A DNA stretch of 64,000 nucleotides, from assembly GCF_010669145.1 (NCBI RefSeq), contig NZ_CP048632.1:992001-1056000 (forward strand), written 5' to 3'. Source of the stretch: Rhizobium oryzihabitans (GTDB taxonomy: Bacteria; Pseudomonadota; Alphaproteobacteria; Rhizobiales; Rhizobiaceae). The position numbers and the translations under genes were made by a program. Of the stretch, positions 28,649-34,332 are shown in pieces. Every line of letters begins with the position of its first letter. Within the stretch, counting starts at the first letter, position 1. The notes under the pieces were generated by a model. The model had not been told where the DNA came from. It worked only from the letters and a program-made list of their open reading frames with translations, and did no database searches.

Positions 28649-28675
28649 CAGGGCCTTGACCAAAGGCCCTGCCCG
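28649..28675 (+). terminator. Hairpin overlapping the cysS leader promoter
   Basis: GGCAGGGCCTT and AAGGCCCTGCC form an eleven-base stem around a GACCA loop, just after the stop of the small membrane protein gene. There is no T run. The loop contains part of the TTGACC box of the candidate cysS leader promoter, so the same DNA may both end one transcript and begin the next. Confidence 0.5.
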
Positions 28676-28684
28676 CGCCATAAG
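28656..28684 (+). promoter_or_regulatory. cysS: Candidate promoter of the cysS leader
   Basis: TTGACC (28656-28661), exactly 17 bases, and CATAAG (28679-28684) form a good sigma-70 type promoter for an alphaproteobacterium. The expected transcription start, six to eight bases after the second box, falls at 28690-28692, on or next to the ATG of the Cys-rich leader peptide. Confidence 0.6.
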
Positions 28685-28691
28685 GCAAGGC

Positions 28692-28721
28692 ATGAAAACA
28701 ACGATCTGCACCTGCTGCTGA
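28692..28721 (+). CDS. Cys-rich leader peptide upstream of cysS
   Basis: A nine-codon ORF encodes MKTTICTCC and stops at TGA; three of its last four codons are TGC for cysteine. It lies 107 bases before cysS and appears to begin at or within two bases of the transcription start of a well-spaced promoter, as in leaderless trpL transcripts of rhizobia. Runs of codons for the cognate amino acid before a tRNA-synthetase gene are the hallmark of ribosome-mediated attenuation. ACCTG inside the ORF can pair with CAGGT downstream, but a classical terminator with a T run was not found. Confidence 0.6.
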   Translation: MKTTICTCC

Positions 28722-28828
28722 ATAAATTTTGCTGGTTCGCCACAGGCCAGGTCGTTTTCGTCTTCCCGCAAGGTCCAACAGACAAACGGTCCGGTCAGGA
28801 CAATTGACTGCCTTTAGGGAACACCCGC

Positions 28829-30214
<1,386 letters not shown>

Positions 30215-30471: not shown

Positions 30472-30840
30472 ATGCCGCATGCAGACGTCGATCCGATGCA
30501 TCGCCATTATGCGAAGCAGATGCGTAAAGTCATGACGGATGCCGAGCTGAAGCTCTGGAATGCCATTCGCGCTCATCGCCTTGAACGACTAAGTTTTCGC
30601 AGACAAATGCCGATTGCCGGCTTTATCGTTGATTTCGCCTGTTCGGATCATCGTCTGATTGTCGAGGTCGACGGTTCTCAACACACATCTGAAGCGGCAC
30701 TGCGCTACGATCAGACAAGAACTGCGCGGCTTCAGGAAGACGGCTGGACAGTCCTCCGTTTCTGGAACGAGGATATCCTCAGAGACATCGACAATGTCTG
30801 TCTCCACATTATCCGAACGGTGAAGGAGGACCGACCATGA
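30472..30840 (+). CDS. DUF559 domain endonuclease-like protein
   Basis: A 122-residue protein with the DUF559 order: TDAELKLWNAIR (about 24-35), FRRQMPIAGFIVDFAC (about 43-58), LIVEVDGSQH (about 63-72, with the acidic and ExD catalytic residues of a PD-(D/E)XK-like nuclease) and VLRFWNEDI. DUF559 proteins resemble very-short-patch repair endonucleases, but their targets are unknown. It opens an operon of five genes, each overlapping the next by ATGA. Confidence 0.85.
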   Translation: MPHADVDPMHRHYAKQMRKVMTDAELKLWNAIRAHRLERLSFRRQMPIAGFIVDFACSDHRLIVEVDGSQHTSEAALRYDQTRTARLQEDGWTVLRFWNEDILRDIDNVCLHIIRTVKEDRP

Positions 30841-31310
30841 CGACATATACCGGCGGGTGCCAGTGCGGCGCGATCCGTTTCCGTGCAACCGGCGACCTGA
30901 AAGACAGTTCCATCTGTCACTGCCGCATGTGCCAGAAGGCTTTCGGGGCCTATTACGCGCCGCTGGTCTCCGTACGCGACGTTGAATTCGAATGGACGCG
31001 CGGTGAGCCGAAACGCTTCCAGTCTTCCAGTGTCGTCAAGCGCGGTTTCTGCCCCGAATGCGGCACTCCGCTGACCTATGAAGCGCCTGACGGTGTGGCG
31101 GTGGCGGCCGGGGCTTTTGACGATCCCGCCGCGCTGCCCCCAACCATTCAGTGGGGCGTGGAACGCAAGATCGATTTCGTCGACACGCTTCACACGCTGC
31201 CTGCCGTTGCCACCGAAGACGACCTGACGCAGGTTGATTACCTCGCCGATCTCGTTTCCTACCAGCATCCCGACCACGACACTGAAAACTGGCCACCGGA
31301 GAACAGATGA
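30837..31310 (+). CDS. GFA family zinc protein, copy 1 (Mss4-like fold)
   Basis: A 157-residue protein with the zinc-ligand pattern GGCQCGAIRF (about 6-15), CHCRMCQK (about 28-35) and FCPECGTPL (about 69-77). The family is named after glutathione-dependent formaldehyde-activating enzyme, but most members, like this one, have no proven reaction. Its ATG overlaps the DUF559 stop. It ends with SYQHPDHDTENWPPE, a tail shared with the next two proteins. Confidence 0.87.
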   Translation: MTTYTGGCQCGAIRFRATGDLKDSSICHCRMCQKAFGAYYAPLVSVRDVEFEWTRGEPKRFQSSSVVKRGFCPECGTPLTYEAPDGVAVAAGAFDDPAALPPTIQWGVERKIDFVDTLHTLPAVATEDDLTQVDYLADLVSYQHPDHDTENWPPENR

Positions 31311-31770
31311 TGAGCGAAACGGGATTTTCCGGCGGTTGCCAGTGCGGCGCCGTGCGTTTCCATGCGGGCACGCTCGGCCGGGCCTCCATCTGCCATTGCC
31401 GCATGTGCCAGAAACATTTCGGCAATTTCTTCGGCGCGCTGGTCAGCGCCGATCAGGCGCATCTGACCTGGACACGCGGCCAGCCGGCCCTCTTCCGCTC
31501 CTCGGGAAAAATCCATCGCGGTTTCTGCAACAAATGCGGCACGCCGCTGACCTATCATTATCCCGGCGGCGTGGAGATCGCCATCGGCGCCTTCGATGAG
31601 CCCGAGCGGATTGAGCCGCAGGTGCAGGTCAATTTCCACAGGCGCATGCCGTGGATCGAGCAGCTGTTCGGCAAACCGGCCTTGGAACAGGGCGTGGACG
31701 AGGCCGAAATCACCTCCTATCAGCACCCGGATCACGACACCCAGGTCTGGCCGCCGGAAGACGAGCGCGC

Positions 31771-31774
<4 letters not shown>
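31307..31774 (+). CDS. GFA family zinc protein, copy 2
   Basis: A 155-residue paralogue of the preceding protein: GGCQCGAVRF, CHCRMCQKHFG, FCNKCGTPLTY and the tail SYQHPDHDTQVWPPE are all present. Two consecutive ATG codons (31307 and 31310) could start it. It overlaps both neighbours by four bases. The three copies differ throughout their middle parts, so the duplications are not recent. Confidence 0.87.
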
Positions 31775-33209
<1,435 letters not shown>

Positions 33210-33425
33210 TCAGCTCTTTCAGTGGCTTGAAGCGGCCGGATGAGACAATGATTCATATGAATTGTCGGGTGTGGGTCATCCGGCCGGTCACGACGCCGCC
33301 TGTTTCAACGGCAAAGCGCCTTTTATTCATGCAGTTTTTCTCATGAACCCTTCACGGAAATGAATTGGCTCCCGCCACACCGATCCGCTATGAAAGGACC
33401 ATCCGAACAATTTGGCGGTACTCCC

Positions 33426-34332
33426 ATGGCACTCGACAAAACGCTCCCGGCCCAAGAGGGCGGCGACAGCGCGCGCGGTTTTGCTTTCGCGCTTTCCGCA
33501 TATCTGCTGTGGGGTTTCTTCCCTCTACATGAAAGCGGTCGCGCATATCTCGCCGATCGAGGTCATCGTTCACCGCGTCATTTGGTCGGTGCCGATCGCA
33601 GCGGCGGTGCTGATTGCACTCGGGCGGACAACGGAAATCAGGGCGGCGCTGAAGAACCCGAAAATGCTGGCCATGGCGAGCCTCACGGCCGCTCTCATCA
33701 GTATCAATTGGGGCGTCTATATCTGGTCGATTGGCGCCGGCCGCGCGCTTGATGCCGCCCTTGGTTATTTCATCAATCCGCTGTTCAGCATCTTCCTCGG
33801 CGCAGTGCTTCTGAAGGAAAAACTTTATCCGGCGCAGATCGCCGCCATCGTTCTGGTGGCGCTTGCGGTCGCGATCCTCACCTGGCATGCGGGTAGCCTG
33901 CCATGGGTTTCCATTGTGCTGACCGTCTCCTGGGGTTTTTACGCCTTCTTCCGCAAGACATTGCCGATTGGTGCGACACAGGGCTTTCTGCTGGAAGTCA
34001 TGCTGCTGTCCATCCCGGCCGTCCTGGTCATGGCATGGCTGGGCTTCAGTGGACAGGCGCATTTCATGGCTGGTAATGCGACGGACACCTGGCTTCTGGT
34101 CGCCAGCGGCCTCATCACCGCCGTTCCGCTCATTCTTTACGGCAATGGCGCGAAACTCCTGCGGCTGTCGACCATTGGCATCATGCAATACATCGCCCCG
34201 ACGATGATCTTCCTGATCGCCATTTTCATCTTCAAGGAGCCTTTCGACATGGTGCGGATGGCGGCCTTTGCGATGATATGGATGGCGCTGGCGATCTATA
34301 CCGGTTCGAGCCTGCTACGGCTCAAGCGGTAA
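33426..34332 (+). CDS. rarD: RarD-like EamA family transporter (frame broken at a C run)
   Basis: The N-terminus MALDKTLPAQEGG with the first membrane segment FALSAYLLWGFFP is in one frame; the remaining nine or so segments, from LYMKAVAHISPIEVIVHRVIWS, are in another. The switch lies at CCC (33521-33523). Here two bases are missing, as if five C were read as three; alternatively one base is extra, but this would lose a conserved Pro. The repaired protein has about 302 residues, usual for RarD, a drug/metabolite-superfamily permease of unknown substrate. Confidence 0.85.

Follow-up and report, generated by a model that had tools for sequence, protein, structure and literature searches.

The window, by which we mean the whole 64,000-nucleotide stretch of Rhizobium oryzihabitans DNA analysed here, includes cysS, whose product is a clear class-I cysteinyl-tRNA synthetase (PF01406). 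Upstream of this gene lie a sigma70-type promoter and a nine-codon open reading frame (ORF), MKTTICTCC, codons 6, 8 and 9 of which are all TGC (Table 1). An earlier note on this DNA had described both, and both were found where it placed them: 17 bases separate TTGACC from CATAAG, the short ORF has three TGC codons, and it precedes cysS by 107 bases. The -35 box begins 36 nt before the A of the leader ATG. This is the customary distance between a -35 box and position +1, which makes a leaderless start plausible, and to judge from the sequence the leader ORF is probably leaderless. The likely Shine–Dalgarno sequence of cysS is AGGGA, downstream of the segment that we call E.

Between cysS and the place that cimA occupies in Rhizobium leguminosarum, the window holds a DUF559 gene, three tandem GFA-domain genes and an alpha/beta hydrolase gene (30472–33209). 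The GFA genes and the hydrolase gene are also found in L047, L048 and L056, the three relatives compared. No Rfam family was matched in a scan of the window. A scan of ten related loci gave PYLIS_3 as its sole match, away from the leader and slightly over the gathering score (L073:1867–1964, reverse strand, in an alphaproteobacterium); it is probably due to chance.

Table 1. Features of the cysS region, in window coordinates
Feature	Position	Strand	Basis and remarks
Sigma70-type promoter, TTGACC-N17-CATAAG	28656..28684	+	Read directly; TTGACC 28656–28661, CATAAG 28679–28684
Leader ORF, MKTTICTCC and stop	28692..28721	+	ATG 28692–28694; putative sensor Cys codons 6, 8 and 9
Segment A, start codon to codon 6, predicted to pair with D	28692..28708	+	Fold and swap test
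B:C hairpin past the stop codon, weakly terminator-like	28732..28750	+	Tail GTCGTTTTCG; 1 found, 0.6 expected from shuffles
Segment D, CAGGTCGTTTTCGT, predicted partner of A or E	28748..28761	+	Pyrimidine-rich tail after D
Segment E, AGACAAACGGTCCGGTCAGG, predicted alternative partner of C/D, before AGGGA	28780..28799	+	Swap test, C/D with E
cysS, cysteinyl-tRNA synthetase, putative controlled gene	28829..30214	+	PF01406, E 6.7e-113
cimA site of R. leguminosarum, empty here	33210..33432	+	Synteny with L047; between alpha/beta-hydrolase and EamA-family genes (Pfam)

The leader among relatives

We compared the regions upstream of cysS in 25 genomes of the same genus, one of them the window's own, and in five further genomes of the order. 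In 24 of the 25, TTGACC, CATAA and the ATG are present at identical distances, TTGACC preceding the ATG by 36 nt; in the remaining one (L019) the region upstream of cysS is unrelated and has no leader. The 24 leaders have the consensus M(K/R)xxIC(T/C/R/L)CC. Cys 6, 8 and 9 are retained in every one of them, with silent exchange of TGC and TGT, and codons 2, 3, 4 and 7 are variable. Conservation of the ATG and the Cys codons, and silent substitution within the ORF, were among the checks that the earlier note had proposed, and both turned out as it had anticipated.

Leaders were sought more widely with a rule in two parts: TTGAC, with at most one mismatch, 34–40 nt before an ATG, and an ORF of 8–26 codons whose last 10 codons include at least three for Cys or Ile, at least one of them Cys. 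Since the rule scores Cys and Ile it is not blind to them, and its false-positive rate serves as the control: it scored a leader in 13 of 3010 dinucleotide-shuffled sequences and on 3 of 301 reverse strands. The count covers 301 of 312 loci, of which a few named ones may duplicate other genomes in it; genome repeats (L026–L030, L226, L240, L242, L249 and L251) were dropped, and so was L058, whose upstream stretch is too short.

By this rule, a leader is present at 167 of the 208 loci that have cimA, the gene for citramalate synthase in isoleucine synthesis, downstream of cysS (mostly Hyphomicrobiales, some Rhodobacterales), and at 41 of them none was found. In the window's own order the figure for cimA-adjacent loci is 140 of 161, and for those titled Rhodobacterales it is 12 of 15. 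Loci with no cimA have a leader in 33 of 82 cases, 24 of the 33 being the window genus; 'no cimA' means here, for named and order loci, absence from the downstream stretch examined (4–6 kb or more), for the genus and L033–L034, no score over the curated TIGR00977 cut-off, and for L253–L280, no whole-genome match at E 1e-120. The single locus with cimA elsewhere has a leader, as does one of the ten whose cimA status is undetermined. Two entries need comment: L255 (genome G290, discussed below) was counted with the wrong peptide, the rule having chosen another ORF, and the hit at L254 is probably a chance one. The -35 box lies 36 nt before the ATG in 109 of 202 leaders, the peak, and 35–37 nt before it in 178 of 202, within the 34–40 nt that alone were admitted by the rule.

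The leader of R. leguminosarum and Ensifer adhaerens is MKTVICIICRKIIR, that of Mesorhizobium is MKTSFAICGICIIG, and that of Devosia is MKTKCTIIACIITC; several Rhodobacterales carry leaders too, such as MNGTCIIICCITI. A further 100 loci of the order and 87 of the family give much the same picture.

Isoleucine codons and cimA

Leaders adjacent to cimA are rich in Cys and Ile, and in 157 of 167 at least three of the last ten codons are for Ile. The 24 leaders of the window genus have one or two Ile among the last ten codons and no run of Ile after the Cys codons. It was the longer, Cys- and Ile-rich peptides of relatives in the order that suggested an isoleucine gene in the cluster. A profile search with TIGR00977 (CimA) gave scores above the curated cut-off in 13 of 41 genomes, and in 11 of these 13 cimA shares its contig and strand with cysS and lies about 3 kb or less downstream; none of the 25 same-genus genomes, the window's own included, has a match above that cut-off. 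The order in R. leguminosarum (L047) is cysS, a DUF559 gene, three GFA genes, an alpha/beta hydrolase gene, cimA (548.9 bits to TIGR00977, for a cut-off of 450) and an EamA-family gene, and the order in the window is identical minus cimA.

One other member of the family, G290, which has no cimA match at E 1e-120, bears the leader MNTSLANCCRC, with no Ile and with an exact TTGAC 36 nt upstream. In a cysS tree G290 stands outside the well-supported groups that unite the window genus with cimA-bearing relatives, and the window genus is not separated from cimA-bearing L229 and L231. Apparently cimA and the Ile codons were lost in the window genus and again, separately, in G290. At the Hyphomonas locus (L097), where no cimA lies within 6 kb, there is a Cys-only candidate leader that ends in ACCCCR and has a poorer promoter match.

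The correspondence has exceptions. Of 28 genomes of the family with no cimA match, 22 have no convincing leader (the hit at L254 being set aside as a chance one). G290 is another, and the other five (L260, L266, L270, L272 and L280) have leaders with 2–4 Ile in the last ten codons, which argues against a strict rule tying Ile to cimA. It is possible that cimA was overlooked in these five, since their assemblies are fragmented (four into 150–770 contigs, one into 90). At L164 there is no cimA in the 4.5 kb examined and the leader still has three Ile; in G348 (L281) cimA and cysS are on different contigs and the leader has four. Largely, and with some such exceptions, the amino acids encoded by the leader (Cys and Ile, or Cys alone) appear to follow the gene content downstream. 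The window's leader looks like a reduced, Cys-only form of the Cys and Ile leader of the cysS–cimA operons of Hyphomicrobiales and Rhodobacterales.

Leaders and synthetase genes use different Ile codons. At 118 cimA-adjacent loci, the ratio ATT/(ATT+ATC) has a mean of 0.69 in leaders versus 0.15 in cysS, and the ATT share is higher in the leader than in its own cysS at 115 of the 118. For Cys, leaders and cysS alike mostly use TGC (191 of 227 and 486 of 525 codons, respectively). Perhaps ATT is chosen in leaders as the slower codon, or for the sake of RNA structure. The leader ATT excess was seen among the L026–L225 loci (for example at L047:5834–5878).

Two observations at related loci may be recorded here. 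In five loci titled Pelagibacteraceae (L106, L111, L114, L124 and L125) cimA begins 15 nt past cysS, and an ORF end reading M(E/D)PIPVCKIP(N/K/S), which may belong to a longer upstream gene, occurs about 90 nt before cysS. In G386, a genome of the family, a further cysS-like sequence, a distant match at 54% identity, lies within a long open frame (C1:3331971–3333323).

Alternative pairings and their possible consequences

Three pairing segments, A, D and E, and a hairpin, B:C, can be discerned in the leader region (Table 1), the consensus having been read from an alignment of 69 of 106 reference leaders. In Rhizobium and others the 5' arm of the hairpin includes the stop codon (GCTAGCG...CGCTGGC). 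Pairing was assessed with a swap test, in which leaders are paired with their own regions or with those of other genomes; the 104 leaders used, non-redundant among 151, came from L001–L225 only and were picked by a slightly wider rule. Segment A, taken as the first 18 nt, paired with its own D at -14.73 kcal/mol versus -11.66 kcal/mol with swapped ones (z -11.7, n = 104), and the controls gave z of 0.0 for the promoter, -1.3 for the E region and +3.1 for the end of the ORF; relatedness partly remains in the test, but should inflate the controls equally. For C/D with the region before cysS (E), z was -6.4, and for the controls -1.3 (promoter) and -0.1 (end of the ORF with E). The first paired base of A falls within the AUG in 80 of the 104 leaders. 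In the window itself, the A:D fold (28692–28764) has a z of -1.87, with 10 of 200 shuffles as good, and in the D:E fold (28729–28800) D does pair with E, yet stability does not exceed that of shuffles (z 0.51). Two mutually exclusive pairings, A:D and D:E, are supported by the comparison among genomes, and together they would form the architecture of an attenuator. A different pairing, between ACCTG in the ORF and CAGGT downstream, had been suggested earlier. It was rejected as the conserved one: ACC occurs in 13 of the 24 genus leaders, the fold uses another partner, and the conserved partner of D is the start of the ORF (A).

The interval is most likely a ribosome-mediated attenuator upstream of cysS. 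RNA polymerase would initiate at or beside the leader AUG, and a ribosome would read the nine codons. When Cys-tRNA(Cys) is ample, the ribosome would complete the leader and depart, A would pair with D round the stop-codon hairpin, and cysS would be reduced. When it is scarce, the ribosome would stall at codons 6–9 and mask A, D would pair instead with E, before the cysS ribosome-binding site, and cysS would be on. Many relatives have the same element before cysS and cimA, with Ile codons as well as Cys codons, and in the lineage of the window, where cimA is missing, the putative sensor retains Cys alone. Comparison supports the ORF, its codons, the fixed promoter distance, both of the alternative pairings and the link with cimA. 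We infer the leaderless start, the stalling, the direction of the ON and OFF states, the co-transcription of cysS with cimA, and the output step.

For the operons that have both genes, we lean towards a leader with two inputs: a single leaderless peptide, mostly of 13–20 codons, would read Cys for cysS and Ile for cimA, its codons being re-edited as the cluster changes. The leader's own start codon would be part of the switch helix, so that translation of the leader would keep the switch open. A ribosome stalled late, at the Ile codons, may then admit a second ribosome at the AUG, which would cover A.

How pairing would be converted into an effect on cysS is a separate matter. The earlier note had seen no classical terminator. 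It is so that no canonical one is conserved, although the B:C hairpin of the window is weakly terminator-like. Terminator-like sites are enriched weakly, occurring in 18 of 156 leaders and in 4–11 of 156 in five shuffle sets; a search of L093 found none. A U-rich tail follows D in 10 of 13 leaders of the Rhodobacterales set, in 53 of 150 other loci of the order and in 5 of 15 other named loci, counts that have no shuffle control and in which the Rhodobacterales set was assigned by title (L092 is titled Alphaproteobacteria only). None of the 24 leaders of the window genus reaches five T in the eight positions after D. A pyrimidine tract (at least 11 in 12) follows D in 53% of 156 leaders, as against 18% of shuffles. 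In leaders of Rhodobacterales (for example L073, L093, L094 and L108), a similar stretch, GTTGCTA or TTGCTA, occurs shortly before CCCGC in the segment preceding cysS, partly beyond the pairing arms. Predicted accessibility of the cysS start is 0.409 with the leader free and 0.406 with it blocked (n = 131; higher at 27 loci, lower at 32), the starts having been set by extending tblastn matches, so that they may err by a few codons. Sequestration of the Shine–Dalgarno sequence through the alternative pairing was rejected on this unchanged mean. Given unchanged accessibility and no canonical terminator, neither output route is directly supported. We somewhat favour termination of transcription, whether intrinsic or dependent on Rho, close to the pyrimidine tract that follows D.

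Control of cysS translation is less favoured. According to this explanation, for which we hold out a limited chance, the alternative pairing would gate the cysS ribosome-binding site and not the termination of transcription. In many of the relatives listed E is, by eye, directly before a Shine–Dalgarno-like stretch, and the want of a conserved canonical terminator also counts in its favour. The equal accessibility of the start in the two states speaks against it, and so do the U-rich tails of the Rhodobacterales and the published model of the Rhodobacterales element uORFC-8-2, which ends in a U run (PMC8632094).

Dependence on Rho in particular, a sub-case of termination, seems to us unlikely. 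The pyrimidine stretch after D would serve as a loading site for Rho, exposed or hidden according to whether the leader is translated. The excess of such tracts over shuffles agrees with this, and Rho was considered, as a weak prediction, for the terminator-less Cys leaders of mycobacteria as well (PMC1262725); the tract is short, though, and lies partly within the A:D and D:E helices.

It is improbable that the leader acts in trans, as a peptide or an attenuated short RNA with targets of its own, in the manner of rhizobial trpL. The leaderless trpL of Sinorhizobium meliloti does yield a 14-amino-acid peptide for which a function is reported, and a dual-function sRNA (PMC10117765), but beyond the pairing segments and the codons for Cys and Ile, the peptides considered here differ greatly from genus to genus in both sequence and length (9–26 codons). 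That a real promoter and ATG are followed by a meaningless peptide, short ORFs being common and the window alone not decisive, is scarcely credible in the face of the conservation of the ORF, its codon content, the shuffles and the co-varying pairing.

Comparison with known systems

Each of the best-known attenuators responds to the product of the pathway that it controls. Leaders of the ilvGMEDA type have a single peptide that reads several amino acids, all of them products of one pathway. A cysS–cimA leader would differ in joining the Cys of a synthetase with the Ile of a biosynthetic route, and the two would be joined in one leader because cysS and cimA share a cluster. One leader appears to couple two unrelated amino acids through a shared gene cluster, and gene loss in separate lineages provides a natural test of the idea that the codons of the leader follow the genes of the cluster. 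If true, this would account for the regulation, in many Hyphomicrobiales and Rhodobacterales, of cysS and of isoleucine synthesis by way of citramalate. It would also provide a large comparative set for leaderless, terminator-poor attenuation.

The closest published element is uORFC-8-2 (PMC8632094, 2021), of which 145 examples are reported, exclusively before cysS and in Rhodobacterales; it has two stems, a U run and, at positions 14–15, tandem Cys codons. It was presented as a cysteine sensor, and ribosome-mediated attenuation was proposed for it. Isoleucine, rhizobi, cimA, citramalate and leaderless are terms absent from the main text of that paper. As described there, uORFC-8-2 resembles the window's element in being a cysS upstream ORF with tandem Cys codons (codons 8–9 in the window), and differs from it in its U run, of which the window-genus leaders have no instance in 24; for this reason we do not file the window's element as a member. 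The published tandem positions, 14–15, also differ from the 7–10 of the Rhodobacterales leaders found here (L074 has no tandem), about half of which have no in-frame start codon upstream; the start codons assumed in the two studies therefore differ, in part. Together with the cimA exceptions, this mismatch of position weighs against the tidiest version of the attenuator.

The leader had been put forward as a new cysteine-sensing member at cysS. As a conserved Cys-codon leader it stands; as an isolated novelty it does not, since PMC8632094 is a precedent from the Rhodobacterales. What is new is the range in Hyphomicrobiales, the Cys and Ile content that, some exceptions apart, tracks cimA, and the mutually exclusive pairings; the cysS upstream ORF of Rhodobacterales was already published. 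The Cys and Ile content and the link with cimA were not found in print in the main text of the open-licence papers searched. More narrowly, cysS is absent from the main text of PMC10117765 and PMC3616915, and cysteinyl and leader peptide from that of PMC4842269 and PMC3616915.

Cys-codon leaders without terminators are described for actinobacteria in PMC1262725, and the polycysteine leaderless ORFs of mycobacteria are described as a cysteine-responsive attenuator (Canestrari et al. 2020, as cited in PMC9031893 and PMC13236596). These last resemble the window's leader, which is probably leaderless too, in their Cys codons, and differ in phylum and in the operons concerned; the passages on them in PMC9031893 and PMC13236596 make no mention of Ile codons. 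Rhizobial trpL, from the same order as the window, is leaderless and a ribosome-mediated attenuator, as the window's leader probably is, and differs in having Trp codons, in preceding trpE and in giving rise to a characterised attenuator sRNA (PMC10117765; PMC7298713).
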